Source of the DNA: Pseudomonadota bacterium
GTDB taxonomy: Bacteria > Pseudomonadota > Gammaproteobacteria > Pseudomonadales > Oceanobacteraceae
Assembly: GCA_030145845.1 (NCBI GenBank)
Contig: JAIXHJ010000003.1
Location: 1-64,000 of the forward strand
Direction: 5' to 3'
DNA length: 64,000 bases
Part shown: positions 10,046 through 64,000 of the stretch, one piece after another
How positions within the stretch are numbered: position 1 is the stretch's first letter
How the letters are laid out: the number at the start of each line of letters is the position of its first letter
Made by a program: the position numbers and the translations under genes
The notes under the pieces: generated by a model
Seen by the model: the letters and a program-made list of their open reading frames with translations, nothing else
Database searches by the model: none
Told to the model about the DNA's origin: nothing

Positions 10046-10966
10046 ATGTGGCAACCTTCTGCCGGGCGTGACGCCCTGCTGGCCCGCCAGAACCTGAATC
10101 AGACCATCCGCCGCTTCTTCGCTGAGCGTGGCGTGCTGGAAGTGGAAACCCCGGTGCTGTCACAGGCGGCGGTCTGTGATCCGAATATTGAACCCATGCA
10201 GACCAGCGATCAGCGTTATCTGCATACCTCGCCGGAATATGCCATGAAGCGTCTGCTGTGCGCCGGCAGTGGCGATATTTTCCAGATTGCGCGGGTATTC
10301 CGTCGTGGTGAAGCCGGCCGCCGCCACAATCCCGAATTCTCCATGCTGGAATGGTACCGGGTCGGCTGGGGGCCACAGCAGCTGATGCAGGAAGTGGCAG
10401 AACTGACCCGGACTCTGCTGGCGGCAGGTTATCCACAGTTACCGGTGATGACCCTGCATTACCGTGAGGCGGTACAGCAGTACGCGGCTATTGATGTCTT
10501 TGTCGCCACTGACGATGACATTGCCTGCCGAGGCATGCAGCTGGCGGGGCAGGATCTGCAATTGAGCCGTGATGGCTGGCTGGACGTGATTATGAGTCAT
10601 GCGGTGGAGCCGGCGCTGCCGCCGGACACACTGGTGTTTATCGATGATTTTCCGGCTTCGCAGGCAGCGCTGGCGCGGGTGGAAAAAAATGCTGATGGCA
10701 TGGCGGTCGCCCGCCGCTTTGAGCTGTATCTGAACGGTGCGGAGCTGGCCAACGGCTATCACGAACTGACCGATGCCGCTGAACAGCGGCGCCGGTTTGT
10801 GGCCGAGGCCGGCAACCGGCCTGTGGATGAAAATCTGCTGGGGGCACTGGCGCACGGGCTGCCGGATTGTGCCGGGGTGGCCATGGGCCTCGACCGTTTG
10901 CTGATGATGGTGCTCAATCACACAGACATTTCTGCCGTACTGGCTTTCGACTGGGCCCGGGCGTAA
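10046..10966 (+). CDS. epmA: EF-P lysine ligase EpmA (GenX/PoxA)
   Basis: 306 residues, a paralogue of the catalytic core of class II lysyl-tRNA synthetase without the anticodon-binding domain. It activates (R)-beta-lysine with ATP and transfers it to Lys34 of EF-P. Class II motif 2 is seen as IARVFRRGEAGRRHNPEFSM, and motif 3 as GVAMGLDRLLMM near the C-terminus. GAGGA precedes the ATG at 10046. It ends 4 bases from the convergent rhodanese gene, without an obvious terminator between them. Confidence 0.93.
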   Translation: MWQPSAGRDALLARQNLNQTIRRFFAERGVLEVETPVLSQAAVCDPNIEPMQTSDQRYLHTSPEYAMKRLLCAGSGDIFQIARVFRRGEAGRRHNPEFSMLEWYRVGWGPQQLMQEVAELTRTLLAAGYPQLPVMTLHYREAVQQYAAIDVFVATDDDIACRGMQLAGQDLQLSRDGWLDVIMSHAVEPALPPDTLVFIDDFPASQAALARVEKNADGMAVARRFELYLNGAELANGYHELTDAAEQRRRFVAEAGNRPVDENLLGALAHGLPDCAGVAMGLDRLLMMVLNHTDISAVLAFDWARA

Positions 10967-11332: not shown

Positions 11333-11926
11333 TTATGGCTGACGGTCGAAATGCACGGTACGGTCATTCCGTGCCGCTATGCGGATGGCGATCAGTACCG
11401 GTGCCGCCAGCAGGGATGCCAGTAATTCCGTCAGCAGTTGGCTGTTGTCCGCTGCCCGGCCACGCAGGCGCGCAAGCAGGGCGTCAAAGGTATTGCCGCT
11501 CAGGTTGGCAAAGTAAATGGCGTATAAACAGGCATGGATTTCCCGTACCTGAGCTTTGCTGAAGGCGCTGCTGAGCCGTTGCCGGGCGGCGGCGGTGGGG
11601 TACCCCTGCTGTTCAGCAAAGTGCTGGGCATAGAGAATGGCAATGCCTTCCTGCTCATTGCCCAGCGGTTGCTCCGGGGTCGTCAGCAGCTCATTCAGAG
11701 CTTCAATATCAACCCCGTTTTTCAGCGCCAGATGCGTATGTGCCCAGGCGCAGTAGCGGCAGTCGTTGACCCGGGTGCAGGCCAGCATGATCTGCTCGCG
11801 CAGCCGGCGTGAGGTGGCCGGTAACAGCAGTGCTTTGCCCAGCCGTGGCAGGCGCAGCAGGGCGGCGGCGCTGATGCGCAGCAGGCTGGTCAGGGTGAAG
11901 ACCCGTTTGCGGAAGGCTGTGTTCAT
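11333..11926 (-). CDS. AhpD/carboxymuconolactone decarboxylase-family protein
   Basis: 197 residues. The core ACTRVNDCRYCAWAHTHLAL contains the CxxC plus downstream His arrangement of AhpD-like members of the CMD family, which act as peroxidase partners or disulfide reductants. The helical remainder (ALNELLTTPEQPLGNEQEGI, then FSKAQVREIHACLYAIYFANLSGN) also fits this fold. It is probably co-transcribed with the GMC oxidoreductase upstream (20 bases away) and the rhodanese downstream. Oxidases of the GMC type make hydrogen peroxide, so a role in coping with it is a reasonable but untested inference. Confidence 0.72.
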   Translation of the reverse strand: MNTAFRKRVFTLTSLLRISAAALLRLPRLGKALLLPATSRRLREQIMLACTRVNDCRYCAWAHTHLALKNGVDIEALNELLTTPEQPLGNEQEGIAILYAQHFAEQQGYPTAAARQRLSSAFSKAQVREIHACLYAIYFANLSGNTFDALLARLRGRAADNSQLLTELLASLLAAPVLIAIRIAARNDRTVHFDRQP

Positions 11927-35222: not shown

Positions 35223-35471
35223 ATGTCAAAAGGGCACTCGCTACAAGACCCTTATCTCAACCAGCTGCGCAAAGAGCGTATCCCTGTATCCATTTTTCTG
35301 GTTAATGGTATCAAGCTGCAGGGCCAGATCGAATCCTTCGATCAGTTCGTTATCCTGTTAAAAAACACGGTAAGTCAGATGGTGTACAAGCACGCGATTT
35401 CGACGGTTGTTCCGTCACGCAATGTGCGTATGGCACCAGCAGACAGTGAAGACGGTCAGTCAGAAGACTAA
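35223..35471 (+). CDS. hfq: RNA chaperone Hfq
   Basis: 82 residues with the Sm fold: Sm1 ([20 protein letters not shown]) and Sm2 ([17 protein letters not shown]), the latter with the YKHA motif. The C-terminal tail is short, as in Pseudomonas (82 residues) rather than E. coli (102). AAGGAG lies 7 bases before the ATG at 35223; the longer frame starting in miaA is rejected. Its distal face binds A-rich repeats, the very motif type found in the predicted RNA at 63.3-63.5 kb. Confidence 0.97.
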
Positions 35472-48727: not shown

Positions 48728-49657
48728 TCAGATCAGCCCCTGATGACGGGCGTAAAATTCAAACACCTCACGTGAAGATTTCTGCGGAATATAACCAAAG
48801 TCATTTTTCAGCGCGCTGTTATCCAGCACCGGACGGTAACGCAGAAAGTCCAGTTGCTCCGGACCATAGCGGGTCAGCTTCAGCAGTTTGCCAGCGGCCA
48901 GTATTGTTTTCAGTACCGTTGCCGGAATGGTCAGATTTTTCTTGCCCAGTGTTGCGGCAATTTCCTGAATGCTCATGGCACCATCACCAGCGAGATTGAA
49001 GCGGCCGCTCAGCTCCTGCTCAACACCGCGGCGGATAATTTCCACCACGTCTTCATCCCAGATAAAGACAAAAGGAGAACGTGAACCGGAAATCGCCAGC
49101 AGACGGTTTTTACGGAACAGATTGGTGATCAGGTTATCGGTGTTTTTTCCCAGCACCGTACCGGGACGGAGAATCAGTTGTTTCAGTTGCGGTGCTTCTG
49201 CGGCGAACTCCGCCAGCATTTCTTCAACCAGACGTTTGTGGTAGCTGTAAGGGAAACTGTAATTGCCGCGGATACTGTCATTTTCCTTCAGCCAGCCCGG
49301 GTTATCGGCATAGTAACCATAAGCGGCTCCGCTGCTGGTTACCGTAATATGACGTACGCCATGCCTGACACACGCCTGCAGCAGATTACGCGTACCGTTG
49401 ACGTCAATATCATAGTCGCGTTCCCGGTCAGGACCGGGCTGCACAATACTGGCCAGATGGATCACATGGGTGATCCCGGCTTTTTCAATGAAGCCGGCCA
49501 GATCCGGTGAACGGATATCCATTTTCCGGTACTGGTAATGAGTCGGGCTGGCATCGCGGATATCGATACCGAAGACGTTATGCTGTTGACAGAGGACGGC
49601 TGCCAGACGTGAGCCGATATAGCCCTCGCTGCCGGTAATCAGAATATTCATTGACAT
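48728..49657 (-). CDS. NAD-dependent epimerase/dehydratase-family protein
   Basis: 309 residues, extended SDR. ILITGSEGYIGSRLA binds NAD; VTSSGAAYGYYADNP and the YSYHKRLVEEML motif hold the catalytic Tyr and Lys. It could be a sugar-nucleotide epimerase or a 3-beta-hydroxysteroid dehydrogenase-like enzyme; the neighbours favour metabolism of a small hydrophobic compound, but that is inference. The start overlaps the preceding gene by 10 bases. Confidence 0.82.
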   Translation of the reverse strand: MSMNILITGSEGYIGSRLAAVLCQQHNVFGIDIRDASPTHYQYRKMDIRSPDLAGFIEKAGITHVIHLASIVQPGPDRERDYDIDVNGTRNLLQACVRHGVRHITVTSSGAAYGYYADNPGWLKENDSIRGNYSFPYSYHKRLVEEMLAEFAAEAPQLKQLILRPGTVLGKNTDNLITNLFRKNRLLAISGSRSPFVFIWDEDVVEIIRRGVEQELSGRFNLAGDGAMSIQEIAATLGKKNLTIPATVLKTILAAGKLLKLTRYGPEQLDFLRYRPVLDNSALKNDFGYIPQKSSREVFEFYARHQGLI

Positions 49658-50562
49658 GTTACGGATCCGTTCTTTTTGTTGTTGCCTGCGGAATACTTAC
49701 GGTCCTGCAGGTTCCAGAAGGCGGTCAGGCTCAGGCCACTGACCAGATGCCAGATACCCCAGGCGGCGGCGATAATTGCCATGCCGGAAAGCTGATCAAA
49801 AAAGGTAAAAATAATACCGAGGCCGAGGCCGGAATTCTGAATGCCGACTTCCAGAGTGACAGCACGGCTGTCGGCGGTATTCAGCTTCATCAGCCGGGCC
49901 GACAGACGCCCGACGCTGAGGGCCAGGGCGTTATGCAGAATCACGATAAAGAAGAAGCTGCCGATACCGGAGACAAATACCTGCCAGTGTTTTCCCAGCG
50001 TGACGCCGACAAAAATAAACAGTACGGCCAGCGATACCATACGGAAAATACCGTCGCTGCGGGCAGCAAAGCCCGGTGACAGGCGGGCTGTTATCAGCCC
50101 CAGAATTAACGGCACAATCAGTACCAGGCCGACCAGCAGCAGAATGTTTTCCGCCGGCACCGAAATCTCTTTCAGCAGGGCCGCGGTGTCCGGATTCAGG
50201 CCACTGTAAAAGACAAAGCTGGCAGGTGTCATCAGCGCGGCACCGATACTGGAAATACCGGTCATGCTGACTGACAGGGCCGTATTTCCCCGTGCCAGAT
50301 GCGTCATGATGTTGGAAAAACTGCCGCCGGGGCAGGAGCCCACGAGAATAATACCCAGCGCAATTTCTGCCGGCATATCAACCAGCATGGTCAGCCCCCA
50401 GCTGGCCGCCGGGAGCAGAATAAACTGGGCAAAAATACCGGTCAGCGGTCCTTTGGGGCGGACCAGAATGCGGCGGAAATCATCAAGGGTCAGGCTGAGT
50501 GCGATTCCGTACATCATAAATGCCAGAATCAGATTCAGCAGAATTAAACTGGTGCCTGACAT
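49648..50562 (-). CDS. Bile acid:sodium symporter-family transporter
   Basis: 304 residues from the ATG at 50562 (an in-frame ATG at 50574 overlaps the stop of the monooxygenase gene and is also possible). About nine or ten membrane helices. SCPGGSFSNIMTHLARGNTA and the later LEVGIQNSGLGLGI are the two crossover regions that bind sodium in this family. Members carry bile acids, steroid sulfates, pantoate or other organic acids; the substrate is not known here. Confidence 0.85.
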   Translation of the reverse strand: MSGTSLILLNLILAFMMYGIALSLTLDDFRRILVRPKGPLTGIFAQFILLPAASWGLTMLVDMPAEIALGIILVGSCPGGSFSNIMTHLARGNTALSVSMTGISSIGAALMTPASFVFYSGLNPDTAALLKEISVPAENILLLVGLVLIVPLILGLITARLSPGFAARSDGIFRMVSLAVLFIFVGVTLGKHWQVFVSGIGSFFFIVILHNALALSVGRLSARLMKLNTADSRAVTLEVGIQNSGLGLGIIFTFFDQLSGMAIIAAAWGIWHLVSGLSLTAFWNLQDRKYSAGNNKKNGSVTCQ

Positions 50563-50563
50563 A

Positions 50564-51874
50564 TCAGGCACCATTCAGCAGTGGTTTCTGCGTTAAGCGT
50601 TTACGTTCACTGGCCATGGCGTCGAGATAATCGGCCTTATGAACGTAGTAAGCCATGCGCGCCAGCTTCAGATAATTCAGTCCACCATCAACGCGCTGTC
50701 CGGCTTCGGCACGGACTTTCTGCATCAGTTTCTCTGCCGCTGGTGAGCCGTCTTCCCTGGCACGGATAAAATCGGCGACCAGCTGTGCCTGATCATCGCG
50801 ACCCTGCCAGCCAAGGCCCGATGCTTCGACCATCCCCATCACAAACAGGTTGTCGAAATGCGGGGTAAATACGTTCAGATACAGTGCCGGTGCATCCCCC
50901 TGCCAGTTCAGGTATTTCTCATCAATAAACGGATAGTGCAGGGTGTAACCGGTGGCTTCCAGAATCAGGTCGTATTCAGCTTTCTTCCCGTCGCTGAATT
51001 CCACACCTTCCGCGGTCAGCTGCTCAATGGCCGGGCGGACTTTAATGTCGCCATGACCGATATGATGCAGGAAGAGGGAATTCACCACCGGATGGGATTC
51101 GTACATTTTATAGTCCGGGTCCGGCAGGCCGAAGCTGCTGGGTTTGCCGGAAATCAGGCGCACCAGAGTACCGTCAACGATCTGTTTTAAGCGGTTGGGC
51201 AGGCGGATTTTTCCACCCAGGGTATCGGTCGGAATACCGGCAACAAATTTCGGCAGAAAATAGTAACCACGGCGCACTACCATATCCACGCTGTGTGCCC
51301 GGTGGACAGCATCCACGGCAATATCGCAGGCACTGTTACCGCAGCCGATAATCAGCACGCGTTTACCGGCAAAAATATCGGCACTGCGGTATTCACTGCT
51401 GTGAATCATCTCACCGCCGAAGTGGCCTTTGAACTGTCCGTGCCGCGGCTTATGCAGCGTGCCGTTGGCCAGCAGTACGCCGGCACAGTCGATCACTTCC
51501 GTTTTATCTCCACAGGTTACGGTCACCTGCCAGCCAGCGCCACGGGGTTCGACATGATCGACCCGGGTATTAAAACGGTACAGATCATACAGCCCGTTTT
51601 GGCGGGCATAGTCGCGCAGATATTTTGCCATCTCATCATGGCGGGGGTAGGTGGCAACGTCGTCACCCATAGGGAAGCCATCAAATTCCGTCATGCCCTT
51701 GGATGAGATCAGGTGGGCGGAGTCATACATGGTGCTGGTCGGGCTGTTAATGTCCCACAGGCCACCCACATCGGAGTGAGTTTCAATGCCGATCACCGGG
51801 AGGCTCTGTTCTGCCAGACGACGGACGGTACACAGGCCCATCGGGCCGGCGCCAATGACGATATAAGGTTTCAT
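50564..51874 (-). CDS. Flavin-containing monooxygenase
   Basis: 436 residues. The FAD motif is VIGAGPMGLCTVRRLAEQ; the family fingerprint FxGxxxHxxxY appears as FKGHFGGEMIHSSEY. The NADPH motif is LIIGCGNSACDIAVD. It could be an N-, S- or Baeyer-Villiger-type oxygenase. It is the first gene of a five-gene minus-strand run and is divergent from an AraC regulator 177 bases away. Confidence 0.88.
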   Translation of the reverse strand: MKPYIVIGAGPMGLCTVRRLAEQSLPVIGIETHSDVGGLWDINSPTSTMYDSAHLISSKGMTEFDGFPMGDDVATYPRHDEMAKYLRDYARQNGLYDLYRFNTRVDHVEPRGAGWQVTVTCGDKTEVIDCAGVLLANGTLHKPRHGQFKGHFGGEMIHSSEYRSADIFAGKRVLIIGCGNSACDIAVDAVHRAHSVDMVVRRGYYFLPKFVAGIPTDTLGGKIRLPNRLKQIVDGTLVRLISGKPSSFGLPDPDYKMYESHPVVNSLFLHHIGHGDIKVRPAIEQLTAEGVEFSDGKKAEYDLILEATGYTLHYPFIDEKYLNWQGDAPALYLNVFTPHFDNLFVMGMVEASGLGWQGRDDQAQLVADFIRAREDGSPAAEKLMQKVRAEAGQRVDGGLNYLKLARMAYYVHKADYLDAMASERKRLTQKPLLNGA

Positions 51875-52051
51875 AGTGCGGTACCCTGTTTTTTATTGTT
51901 CAGGCCCTGGCCTGTGAATGCACCCGCGTGGAGACACTCTTCGTTATTGTCAGGGTCAGATTACTGAAGAAAGTACCGGCCGGCTCTGGCCCATTGAGAC
52001 CAGAACTGGTTAATATGGGACAAACGATAATAACAAGCCGGACCTGACAGC

Positions 52052-53029
52052 ATGACATCCAGCGTAACGCCGGGGTTTACCCGGGCAATTCTGACCGTAC
52101 TGCCACAACTGAATATTGCCCTGCCAGCGGCACTGCAGCAGCGCCTGCAGGCGGTGCCGGCGGACGAGCGCCTGCCGATGAGTCTGCAGGATGAATTGTG
52201 GCAGGCGGTGGCAGAGCAGAGCCACGATAGCTGCACCGGTCTGCAGATCGGCCGTGCCCTGCAGCTGGCCAACTTTGACATGGTCGGATTCCTGCTGCTC
52301 AGCAGTCCGACACTGGCTGAAGCCGCCGATGCCCTGGTGTCTTATTCAACCCTGATTGGCGAAGGCGGCAGCTTTACCATTCTGTCCACGGCACAGGGCT
52401 GGAAGCTCAGCTACCGGGCGGAATTCCGCTGCGGCCGTCTTCTTCGTCTGGATGCGATTGTGGCCAGCATTCTGTTTGGTGCCCGCTGGCTGGTCGGTCA
52501 GGATCTGACCCCACTGGCCGCCGGTTTTGAAGGAGCGGATGACCAGTGCACCGAACGGCAGCAGTTATTTGGCCGTGCACAACTGTTGTTTGAGCAAGCG
52601 GATACCTGGCTGGAATTCAGCGCCGCTGACTGGCAGCGGCCACTGCACAGCGGCAGTCACGAAGTGCGTGAACAGATGCTGCGGCTGGCGCAGCAGCAGA
52701 TGCAGCGCATGCATCCGCGCACCATGGTGGATAAGGTCAGTGCCCAGCTGCGCCAGCGGCCGTGGATGAACCGTCAGCAGACCGCTACCCTGCTGGCCGT
52801 CAGTGAACGGCACATGAACCGTAAGCTGGCAGAACAGCAGCTGAGTTTCCGCCAGCTGGCGGATAAGGTGCGCATGGAGTGTGCGCTGGAGCTGCTGAAA
52901 GAGCGCGGGGCGACACAGGAAAGCATGGCCAGTTATCTGGGCTATTCCGATGGCAGTGCGTTCGCCAAAGCCTTTAAACGCTGGACCGGCATGAGCATGC
53001 GTGCCTGGCTGACGCAGGGCCTGAAATGA
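52052..53029 (+). CDS. AraC-family transcriptional regulator (ArgR/OruR-like N-terminus)
   Basis: 325 residues. An N-terminal effector domain of the arabinose-binding-like type (ANFDMVGFLLLSSPTLAEAA) and a C-terminal pair of helix-turn-helix motifs (TATLLAVSERHMNRKLAEQQ, then SYLGYSDGSAFAKAFKRWTG). It is divergent from the monooxygenase operon, so it is probably its activator. That is inference from arrangement. Confidence 0.88.
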   Translation: MTSSVTPGFTRAILTVLPQLNIALPAALQQRLQAVPADERLPMSLQDELWQAVAEQSHDSCTGLQIGRALQLANFDMVGFLLLSSPTLAEAADALVSYSTLIGEGGSFTILSTAQGWKLSYRAEFRCGRLLRLDAIVASILFGARWLVGQDLTPLAAGFEGADDQCTERQQLFGRAQLLFEQADTWLEFSAADWQRPLHSGSHEVREQMLRLAQQQMQRMHPRTMVDKVSAQLRQRPWMNRQQTATLLAVSERHMNRKLAEQQLSFRQLADKVRMECALELLKERGATQESMASYLGYSDGSAFAKAFKRWTGMSMRAWLTQGLK

Positions 53030-61751: not shown

Positions 61752-63170
61752 TCAGCGCGAGCGCGGCCGGCGGCTGCGGTTACGTGCCGGACGCCGGCGT
61801 TTCGGACCGTCACTGTCACCGTCTTCGCGTAACGGACGGCTCTGCACCAGATCCGGGTTTTCTTCCTGCAGGCGGGTCCAGAAGGCACCGATACCGTCCA
61901 GCTGTTCACCGGACTGCTCACGCAACAGGACAAAATCGTAGGCTGCACGGAAGCGCGGGTGAGTCAGCAGCTCCTGGGTTTTACGGCTGCGTACCCGGCT
62001 CAGGCGCAGCTGCATTTCCCAGATTTCACGCATCGGAATGGAGAAGCGCTTGGGAATGGCCGTCGATTTGGTCTGTTGGGACAGTACGCGGTCGGCGGCT
62101 TTCTGTAATGCCGGGTGTGGCGCCATGCCACGGGCTTCGAATTCCTGCGCGGTGCGTACCAGAGGTGCCCACAGCAGGGACGCGAGGAAGAAATAGGGTG
62201 TTACCGATTTACCCGCGCGGATGCGCACATCGGTGTTACGCATGGTGTTCTCGGCCATCGCCAGTGCCAGCGGATCTTCCTTCAGGCATTGTTCGGTGGC
62301 CGGAAACAGATAGGCGAACAGACCGTATTCACGCAACAGGCGCAGGGTATCCAGTGCCTGGCCGTGCAGGAACAGCTTCAGCACTTCCTCAAACAGACGT
62401 GCGGACGGGATCTGTTCCAGCAGTGGTGCCATCAGCGGAATGGGCTCTGCGGTATGGGCTTCGATATTGAAATCCAGCTTGGCAGCAAAGCGGATGGCGC
62501 GCAGCATGCGCACCGGATCTTCACGATAGCGGGTTTCCGGGTCCCCGATCAGGCGCAGACGGCGGTTCTGCAGATCATCCCAGCCGCCGGCGTAGGCGTG
62601 CACACTGAAGTCGGCAATATCGTAATACAGCGCATTGATGCTGAAGTCGCGGCGCATGGCATCTTCATCTTTGTTGCCATACACATTGTCGCGCAGGATC
62701 ATGCCCTGATCGCCGGTGGCGGCTTCTTTCGGCGAGTTATCGTCGGTTGGCGGCGCGCGGAAGGTGGCGACTTCAATGATCTCACGGCCGAAGACCACAT
62801 GAACCAGTTTGAAACGGCGGCCGATCAGGCGTGAGTTACGGAACAGGCTGTTGACCTGCTCCGGCGTCGCATCGGTGGCGACATCGAAATCTTTCGGGTT
62901 CAGCCCCAGCAGGGTATCGCGCACCCCACCACCGACCAGCAGTGCCTGGTAGCCGGCGTTGTTCAGGCGATACAGTACCTTCAGCGCATTGTCGCTGATG
63001 TTGCGGCGGCTGATGGAATGCTGATCGCGCGGAATGACGGTCAGGGGCGCCTGGTGCTGGTCTTTTTCCCGTCCGGACAGACGTTTCAGACCGGCGCCGA
63101 GTTTTCTGACGGTTTTCGCCAGTTTTTCAGTATTTGTCAGTGATTTGATCAAATTAGGTTGCCGTTTCAC
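61752..63170 (-). CDS. pcnB: Poly(A) polymerase I
   Basis: 472 residues, class II nucleotidyltransferase. ALLVGGGVRDTLLGLNPKDF and DVATDATPEQVNSLFRNSRL carry the GG...DxD catalytic motifs; RRDFSINALYYDI follows. The C-terminus is very basic (GPKRRRPARNRSRRPRSR), as in PcnB rather than CCA-adding enzymes. GTG start at 63170. It adds 3' tails to RNAs, marking them for decay. In Pseudomonas the same gene follows cbrB and crcZ. Confidence 0.94.
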   Translation of the reverse strand: MKRQPNLIKSLTNTEKLAKTVRKLGAGLKRLSGREKDQHQAPLTVIPRDQHSISRRNISDNALKVLYRLNNAGYQALLVGGGVRDTLLGLNPKDFDVATDATPEQVNSLFRNSRLIGRRFKLVHVVFGREIIEVATFRAPPTDDNSPKEAATGDQGMILRDNVYGNKDEDAMRRDFSINALYYDIADFSVHAYAGGWDDLQNRRLRLIGDPETRYREDPVRMLRAIRFAAKLDFNIEAHTAEPIPLMAPLLEQIPSARLFEEVLKLFLHGQALDTLRLLREYGLFAYLFPATEQCLKEDPLALAMAENTMRNTDVRIRAGKSVTPYFFLASLLWAPLVRTAQEFEARGMAPHPALQKAADRVLSQQTKSTAIPKRFSIPMREIWEMQLRLSRVRSRKTQELLTHPRFRAAYDFVLLREQSGEQLDGIGAFWTRLQEENPDLVQSRPLREDGDSDGPKRRRPARNRSRRPRSR

Positions 63171-63253
63171 GGATTAAGCAGCAGGCGAGTTTACCGGTTA
63201 AGCGGTGACAAATAAATCTTGGCAGGAATATTGGTGCAGAGCCGGGGCTGCAG

Positions 63254-63282
63254 AAAAACAAAAAGCCGCATAAAGCGGCTTT
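63254..63282 (-). terminator. Rho-independent terminator of the predicted sRNA
   Basis: Stem AAAGCCGC (63262-63269) and GCGGCTTT (63275-63282), loop ATAAA. On the minus strand it is followed by TTTTTGTTTTT, so it works in the direction of pcnB. No convincing protein gene ends before it. Confidence 0.8.
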
Positions 63283-63535
63283 GTGAGTCCCTGTTGTTAT
63301 CAGTCCATTCCCTGTTTTCCTGATACGAAGCGGCTGTTTTGAATATACAGGCCGTAGCCCTTTATTTTTCTTATTGTCACAGCTCCGGGCTGTGCATTCG
63401 AAACAGTGCCTGCATGGTACCGCTCTGCTGTTGTTATTGTTATCGCAGAGCAGTAACCGGCCATTGTTATTTTTATTGTCGGCCGGTGTGGGACACAGGC
63501 GTTTTTTATTTTTATTGATCGCTGTGTTCCCTCTG
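63254..63535 (-). ncRNA. crcZ: CrcZ-like sRNA, predicted Hfq/Crc decoy
   Basis: Transcribed toward pcnB from a sigma-54 promoter at 63546-63561, ending at the terminator at 63254-63282, about 280 nt. The minus strand shows four A-rich AANAANAA motifs, at about 63503-63518, 63464-63480, 63431-63443 and 63361-63378, plus a weaker one at 63289-63298 (AACAACAG). Three are enclosed by hairpin arms: about 63490-63531, CCGGCC/GGCCGG at 63457-63486, and GCTCTGC/GCAGAGC at 63422-63451. In Pseudomonas, CrcZ lies between cbrB and pcnB, is made from a CbrB-activated sigma-54 promoter and carries several such motifs that titrate Hfq with Crc. Position, promoter type and motif content all agree. The region lacks a believable protein gene. 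It is named by analogy only. Confidence 0.75.
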
Positions 63536-63545
63536 ATCTGTATAG

Positions 63546-63561
63546 AGCAGGCGCCGTGCCA
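63546..63561 (-). promoter_or_regulatory. Sigma-54 promoter of the predicted sRNA
   Basis: Minus-strand sequence TGGCACGGCGCCTGCT: a perfect -24 element TGGCAC and a -12 element CTGCT, with exact GG-N10-GC spacing. The start of transcription would lie near 63535, just before the first hairpin of the sRNA. Confidence 0.7.
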
Positions 63562-63635
63562 GTTTTTAAATATCTATATAAATCAGTGGGTTATGATTTT
63601 TCTGGCGATATTGGTAACCCTGTGTAAGACCAAAG

Positions 63636-63694
63636 TGTTACGGCATCCGGGGTCTGAGGTAACAGTGACTGTTTCCCGGTAACAGTTTGTAACA
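63636..63694 (-). promoter_or_regulatory. Cluster of TGTTAC/GTAACA half-sites upstream of the sigma-54 promoter
   Basis: TGTTAC at 63636-63641, GTAACA at 63659-63664, 63679-63684 and 63689-63694; a related GTAACC lies at 63614-63619. They stand about 75-130 bases upstream of the promoter, where an NtrC-family activator such as CbrB would bind. TGTTAC-type half-sites are, as I recall, the reported CbrB recognition element. Confidence 0.55.
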
Positions 63695-64000
63695 CCACAG
63701 TATCCGCAGGGCTTTACACGGACATCGGGGTTGTCGCCGGAGCCGCAGCAATCAGGCAGCCTGTGGATAACGCACACAGGCCGGTACGGGTCTTGCCCGG
63801 CTCAGGGCATGGGTGACAGGGAATAGCGGAACCTGTGTTGAAGTCCGGACTCCGGGTTTTGCTGTACTCAACGATACCGTCAGGCCGGTTTACGCTGCAC
63901 AAGGTGCCTGGCGTCCGCCGCAGGTTTTGCGCGAACAGAGGTTGTCTGGCATCCGATGATGTCTGTGGGGGCTTGTGTTATGGGAGTGAATCGTCGGGGG
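63695..64000. other. Region without a recognisable gene at the right edge
   Basis: I see no supportable coding region here on either strand. By comparison with Pseudomonas the next gene outside the window should be cbrB, reading toward pcnB. The stretch would then be the cbrB-crcZ spacer. One perfect DnaA-box-like nonamer occurs at 63762-63770, probably by chance. Confidence 0.5.

Follow-up and report, generated by a model that had tools for sequence, protein, structure and literature searches.

The minus-strand interval 63258..63535 very probably encodes the distal of two tandem CrcZ-like decoy RNAs, whose predicted genes would be driven by CbrB and sigma-54 and whose products likely titrate Hfq and Crc, relieving catabolite repression. 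The window (the whole stretch of 64,000 nucleotides that was analyzed) corresponds to bases 1-64000 of contig C3, in a genome of 4.08 Mb on 24 contigs. A CrcZ-like sRNA had been proposed here from its sequence by an initial annotation, and this identity is supported by the cbrAB, crc, hfq and rpoN genes and the CbrB subsites that were found. Its standing in Rfam apart, the locus behaves as a CrcZ in everything that can be read from the DNA.

The predicted distal sRNA is approximately 277 nt long and is marked by a sigma-54 promoter, a terminator, its fold and a sub-threshold match to the Rfam CrcZ model. The promoter, TGGCACGGCGCCTGCT (63546..63561, minus), has the exact GG-N10-GC spacing that the initial annotation had described on this strand, and relatives have a comparable site ahead of their A-rich runs. 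The A-rich runs are of the (AAN)n type, four clear and one eroded, in line with the four motifs and one weaker motif reported previously. Run 1, AATAAAAATAAAAA (63503..63516, minus), run 2, AATAAAAATAACAA (63464..63477, minus; closing arms ACCGGCCG/TGGCCGGT), and run 3, AACAATAACAA (63431..63441, minus; closing stem of 11 pairs), are predicted to lie in hairpin loops, and run 4, AATAAGAAAAATAA (63362..63375, minus), inside a predicted long stem. The eroded fifth site, ATAACAACA (63292..63300, minus), is intact in relatives such as L011, L014, L020, L023 and L038. The intrinsic terminator, likewise anticipated, consists of a stem (63259..63285, minus) and then a T-rich tail, and the stem is paired in 13/13 aligned distal copies.

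Neither the sigma-54 core pattern, which matches at 42 places in the window where 24 would be expected, nor terminator-like sites (1 in the window against 1.0 expected) are remarkable alone, so the rarity lies in their combination with the A-rich runs. The sequence AANAANAANAANAA occurs five times in the window, three of them in the distal copy, compared to 0.08 times on average and at most 4 times in shuffles. We defined a module as a sigma-54 site with at least 9 consensus letters together with at least three A-rich runs within 330 nt; two were observed in the 1210-base gap of this genome, and 0 of 2000 dinucleotide shuffles yield even one. The distal RNA (63258-63535, minus) folds at -92.3 kcal/mol (z = -6.3), a value equaled by 0/200 shuffles.

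The predicted start at approximately 63535 follows a rule calibrated on one Pseudomonas locus (L024), the same rule being used to place the start of Pseudomonas CrcZ; applied to L024 it gives 10578, and Rfam CrcZ there starts at 10579. The predicted long stem around run 4 pairs CTGTTTCGAATG with ATATTCAAAACAG (63334..63406, minus; consensus pairs of 13 distal copies), and its five core pairs are unchanged or paired in 13/13 distal copies. This core is steady, whereas the stems in hairpins 2 and 3 change fast, and it may have a separate role.

The proximal CrcZ-like copy, of approximately 162 nt, is predicted between cbrB and the distal copy, beyond the window (64175-64014, minus). It has its own sigma-54 promoter (64201-64186, minus) with CbrB-type subsites upstream, and three clear A-rich runs (64149-64139, 64116-64103 and 64083-64070, minus) plus a weak one. 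The copy ends in a strong hairpin approximately 450 nt before the next promoter; after this hairpin comes a pyrimidine tract with scattered T and no clean T run, which counts against our reading. Searching the whole genome with the Rfam CrcZ model gave two adjacent matches, at C3:63990-64151 (E 5.3e-5) and at the distal copy (E 1.1e-4), and no dispersed crcY-like copy, all other matches being at E 0.12 or worse. The genome contains 25 TGGCACGN6GCW sites, and only two, the promoters of these copies, precede at least two A-rich runs. Further dispersed copies were rejected on this basis, as no other promoter of the searched pattern has two A-rich runs behind it; the search covered this one pattern, which less canonical promoters could escape.

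The gene order is cbrA-cbrB-copy 1-copy 2-pcnB. The initial annotation had presumed cbrB upstream and suggested looking for cbrA and cbrB just past base 64000. Both genes are there: cbrB (contig bases 64380-65780, minus), beyond the window edge, encodes receiver and sigma-54 activator domains, and cbrA (contig bases 65777-68713, minus) encodes a long N-terminal part and then PAS, HisKA and HATPase domains. The genes gluQ and dksA come after cbrA on the same strand. The downstream neighbor is pcnB, encoding poly(A) polymerase (61752..63170, minus; TIGR01942, 512.5 bits, cut-off 305.65), with folK and panB beyond it. With both neighbors identified, the proposed cbrB-crcZ-pcnB position stands, the gene lying between cbrB and pcnB and downstream of cbrAB.

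Compared over nearly the whole length with their counterparts in the Pseudomonas loci, CbrB shows 66-68% identity and CbrA 56-58%. The kinase-part Pfam domains of CbrA are those of the Pseudomonas control; this domain set and the full-length similarity, together with the receiver and sigma-54 activator domains of CbrB, identify the pair as CbrAB. An SLC5 transporter domain was sought in the N-terminal half of CbrA, and Pfam named no transporter domain there at E values up to 10, whether in this protein, in the Pseudomonas control or in L061. The nearest CbrA proteins, 83-85% identical, come from Thalassolituus records and kin, outside Pseudomonadaceae. In a quick tree of CbrA and CbrB (SH-aLRT support only), made without six near-duplicate Pseudomonas rows, L035 (stop in match), and L037 and L074 (incomplete match), the organism groups with T. 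marinus and two other rows. The suspicion that the organism is outside Pseudomonas was thus well founded, the closest CbrA and CbrB found being those of Thalassolituus and kin.

The hfq gene lies within the window (35223..35471, plus; TIGR02383, 102.7 bits, cut-off 61.7; start codon picked by us at MSKGHS), and rpoN is present on C9. Two ExoIII-type proteins are encoded in the genome, one of them beside pyrE and rph (neighbors named from translations). The best PDB match of this protein is P. aeruginosa Crc (4jg3, E 5e-73), and it departs from the true ExoIII of the genome at two motifs, with GNFE for GDMN and IQNLK for LQETK. We take the GDMN and LQETK positions, where Crc differs from ExoIII, to be catalytic motifs. 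Being ExoIII-like, adjoining pyrE and closer to Crc than to ExoIII, the protein is the Crc orthologue that the initial annotation had proposed to seek in the genome, which encodes all five of CbrA, CbrB, Crc, Hfq and RpoN. The Hfq has Phe at position 25, where PAO1 Hfq has Tyr25 on its distal face, and this counts against the decoy reading; a distal-face variant, Y25D, is described for PAO1 Hfq (in PMC4063720).

A CbrA search of named genomes yielded 70 loci, 66 of which had a cbrB match; with the present locus these gave 67 cbrB-downstream gaps, leaving out L077-L079 (kinase-domain matches only) and L037 (contig stops before cbrB). As the loci were chosen by CbrA homology, the motif did not select them. 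They include the genera Thalassolituus, Oleispira, Bacterioplanes, Oceanobacter, Motiliproteus, Balneatrix, Pokkaliibacter, Zooshikella, Neptuniibacter, Marinobacterium and Aliamphritea, with Pseudomonas as the control. The module was found in 53 of the 67 gaps. The rule made 74 calls, reduced to 73 by an overlapping double call (L020) and brought to 75 by adding L022 copy 2 and L073 copy 3 by eye, which have only two A-rich runs each; the counter used for shuffle tests, with a slightly looser rule, also gives 75 modules. No module was found outside the gaps in 1.873 Mb of strand-bases, on the antisense strand of the gaps, or in 20 rounds of dinucleotide-shuffled gaps. Locus L020 (NVUW01000001.1) is from a MAG titled Thalassobium and listed under Paracoccaceae, a name that looks wrong because the CbrAB tree puts the locus with Thalassolituus alkanivorans.

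The 14/67 gaps without a module call count against the decoy reading. In L062, L071 and L021 the contig ends before the gap is complete, and the gap of L033 has only 209 bases before the pcnB match. The L044 gap has A-rich runs with a weaker promoter (score 8), hence missed by the rule, and plausibly holds a module. In L030 cbrB adjoins pcnB, yet no module was called. Eight of the 14 gaps have no pcnB at the site, and when pcnB was sought elsewhere in four of those eight genomes (three Endozoicomonas and one Thiopseudomonas; L030 was excluded, its pcnB adjoining cbrB), a module preceded pcnB in 4/4. These relocated modules (L127, L128, L129 and L130), away from cbrB and beside pcnB, have GTAACA 81-83 nt upstream of the promoter. 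In some Endozoicomonas-type loci, including ones with the module elsewhere, a single A-rich run was seen soon after cbrB (L034:10483-10499 and the gap starts of L036 and L072), and this lone run is possibly a relic of the module.

The association with pcnB would also be expected if the distal stretch were mainly the 5' leader of pcnB, transcribed by CbrB/sigma-54 read-through, with A-rich hairpins regulating pcnB in cis via Hfq. Consistent with this, the module precedes pcnB in the four genomes where it lies away from cbrB, and the distance from the terminator to the listed start of pcnB is only approximately 88 nt. However, the intervening terminator stem is paired in all 13 aligned distal copies, the proximal copy has its own end hairpin approximately 450 nt before the next promoter, and Pseudomonas CrcZ, in the same place, is described as acting in trans on Hfq (in PMC4063720). 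We consider a leader improbable, and favor a decoy RNA that would act in trans.

The binding sites of CbrB are described in PMC6296734 as a set of TGTTAC/GTAACA subsites, of which one is forward and two are reverse and whose centers are 20-25 bp apart, and the third subsite of P. putida crcZ as GTAACg. Upstream of the distal promoter we identified three TGTTAC subsites, at -133, -123 and -103 (63694-63689, 63684-63679 and 63664-63659, minus), and one GTAACA at -80 (63636..63641, minus), 80 nt from the promoter. By its sequence, the distal copy has a sigma-54 promoter with upstream CbrB subsites. Within 160 nt upstream of the 75 modules, 234 subsite hexamers were counted against 6.2 in shuffles. 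GTAACA at -78 to -81 is present in 43/63 non-Pseudomonas modules and in 0/12 Pseudomonas modules. The latter have TGTTAC at -123/-124 and GTAACA at -103/-104, whereas the middle subsite of our distal copy is reversed (TGTTAC at -103). In Pseudomonas pseudonitroreducens, Rfam P36 (RF01679, 'Pseudomonas sRNA P36') at L024:10423-10483 overlaps the CbrB subsites of the crcZ promoter, where TGTTAC stands at position 13 of the gap and GTAACA at position 33; P36 may be a conserved protein-binding site and not an RNA.

The presence of CbrB subsites upstream of both promoters also bears on the proposition that the RNAs titrate Hfq alone, in general sRNA regulation, Crc and CbrAB having no role in carbon control in this lineage. 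Although Hfq is the principal RNA binder, and PMC4063720 describes P. aeruginosa Crc as having no RNA-binding activity itself, these subsites and the Crc orthologue beside pyrE, diverging from ExoIII at the GNFE and IQNLK motifs, make a Crc-free system appear quite unlikely, and argue for a decoy of Hfq and Crc under CbrB control.

A covariance search with the Rfam CrcZ model, as suggested by the initial annotation, bore out the proposal in part: CrcZ was the best RNA-family match (63227-63518, 25.4 bits, E 4.9e-4 in 4 kb), but the score is below the gathering score of RF01675 (25.4 against 95; genome-wide 26.6 and 25.4). With a score below the cut-off, we regard the gene as a CrcZ-like variant and not as a member of RF01675 as curated. 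The gathering score was reached in 0/9 non-Pseudomonas loci scanned, with 307.7 for the Pseudomonas control; sub-cut-off matches in whole-genome searches (E up to 10) also occur in 9/14 control genomes. Like Pseudomonas CrcZ, the copies described here have the cbrB-pcnB position, a sigma-54 promoter with CbrB subsites, and several consecutive A-rich (ARN) Hfq motifs, four plus an eroded one in the distal copy and three plus a weak one in the proximal copy. In Pseudomonas, CrcY and CrcX lie elsewhere than CrcZ, unlike the present copies, which are in tandem at one site. These are also shorter, approximately 277 and 162 nt, compared to 407 nt given for CrcZ in PAO1 (PMC4063720). The CrcZ and CrcY of Azotobacter vinelandii are likewise described as CbrAB-controlled Hfq-Crc decoys with RpoN-dependent promoters and have six A-rich motifs; this organism belongs to the Pseudomonadaceae, and the account in PMC6292655, as far as it bears on these genes, describes no tandem copies.

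Outside Pseudomonas, the A-rich runs are predominantly predicted in hairpin loops. In a test on 73 modules, the flanks of 244 non-Pseudomonas runs pair with -9.16 kcal/mol, against -5.51 for flanks re-dealt (z -24.5, 0/200), and those of 54 Pseudomonas runs with -6.6 against -5.54 kcal/mol (z -3.8). Closure by at least three pairs was predicted for 181/248 runs outside Pseudomonas (104/248 with shuffled flanks), compared to 19/54 in Pseudomonas (15/54 with shuffled flanks). The predicted loops outside Pseudomonas have a mode of 18 nt, with 16-19 nt in 121/181, a mode that is suggestive only, as loop size is partly fixed by run length; those of our own runs are predicted at 14 to 22 nt. For comparison, the distal side of Hfq is described as having six tripartite pockets, 18 nt altogether, and CrcZ with Hfq and Crc is pictured like beads on a string (both in PMC6422490). 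A CrcZ fragment with three A-rich stretches is reported to give three shifts (PMC4063720).

Covariation was assessed in 12 distal copies, L052_4 being dropped as near-identical to L052_3. Stems 2 and 3 pair through compensatory change, with 0/2000 re-dealings reaching each of them; hairpin 1 did not pass this test, as 429/2000 re-dealt arms reach it. RNAalifold on MAFFT alignments found the run-4 stem and the terminators and not the stems around distal runs 1-3. Since it missed the fast-changing stems, the tests with re-dealt arms were used instead, and pairs were not counted in the short alignments made for hairpins 2 and 3, as their columns are shifted by loop length. Decoys of the RsmY/RsmZ/CsrB type also repeat the binding motif of their protein in hairpin loops, often with several copies per genome, and bind CsrA/RsmA via GGA loops. 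The loops predicted here would carry ARN repeats for Hfq, as opposed to GGA.

A 102-codon frame is present on the plus strand (63374-63682). It has no family match in NCBIfam or Pfam and contains stops in L010, L011, L014, L020, L023 and L038; with the frame broken in these six relatives, no conserved protein gene, the finding that the initial annotation had named as one that would speak against an RNA gene, was found across the stretch. That this frame is a short protein gene, or that the sites arose by chance in A-rich intergenic DNA, is barely credible: Thalassolituus relatives do have similar translations (E as low as 9.8e-14, counting stops), but 0/2000 shuffles give the module and the stems change in a compensatory manner, as fits the decoy RNA.

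In the Thalassolituus/Oleispira/Bacterioplanes/Oceanobacter clade, 16/16 complete gaps (our own included, and L021, whose gap is cut by a contig end, left out) have at least two copies of the module, mostly two. Oceanobacter mangrovi has three, the middle one, with two A-rich runs, added by eye. L052, a Thalassolituus MAG, has four, of which copies 3 and 4 (beginning at locus positions 11582 and 12119) are 99.5% identical over 440 nt, reflecting either a recent tandem duplication or an artefact of MAG assembly. Marinobacterium jannaschii has three copies (the third by eye) and M. sedimentorum two, and these two species branch separately, among relatives with a single copy. Each of the 12 Pseudomonas loci that have the module has one copy. 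In our own genome and its nearest relatives there are two copy types, one of approximately 162 nt with a TTGCTTTG stem and one of approximately 277 nt with a AAAGCCGC or AAAGTCGC stem; as both types recur between species, the duplication looks old.

By analogy with the known system, poor carbon supply would be sensed by CbrA, leading to activation of CbrB, which together with sigma-54 would drive transcription of both copies. At each A-rich loop, one Hfq hexamer would be docked by its distal face (18 nt, in six ARN triplets), along with Crc. Catabolic mRNAs would thereby lose Hfq and Crc from their A-rich start regions and be freed from catabolite repression, and copy number would set the amount of Hfq/Crc held. 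Candidate targets are found in the cluster 48728-53029, where an A-rich run lies 23-26 nt before the start of each: a flavin monooxygenase gene (50564-51874, minus; AACAATAAAAA 26 nt before the start), an epimerase/3-beta-HSD-type gene (48728-49657, minus) and an AraC-type regulator gene (52052-53029, plus).

CbrAB has been called exclusive to Pseudomonadaceae in a 2022 review (PMC8871633) and exclusive of Pseudomonads in a statement of a research paper (PMC6296734). Among the matches listed from the open-licence literature, we found no description of CrcZ or CbrAB outside Pseudomonadaceae; cbrAB transcripts are reported in ocean microcosms, in the relevant part of PMC5073097 without assignment to these genera. 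Thalassolituus and Oleispira are listed as obligate hydrocarbon degraders in PMC5847120. On balance, we lean towards the view that the CbrAB-CrcZ-Hfq/Crc system is older than Pseudomonadaceae and extends to Oceanospirillales-type marine bacteria. The decoys would present preformed hairpins with loops of approximately 18 nt, the footprint of one Hfq hexamer, capacity would have been adjusted via repeated tandem duplication (two to four copies), and the tie to pcnB would have been kept, the decoy gene staying with pcnB even where it is parted from cbrAB.

If true, a carbon-control system called exclusive to Pseudomonadaceae would extend over many marine genera, hydrocarbon degraders included. 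The module is easily missed, since the Rfam model stays below its cut-off both in the window and in all nine non-Pseudomonas loci scanned. Tandem copies with loops for approximately one hexamer provide a testable model, in which decoy capacity equals sites per RNA times the number of copies. The association with pcnB, which persists even away from cbrAB, would raise a new question on the relation between poly(A) polymerase and Hfq.
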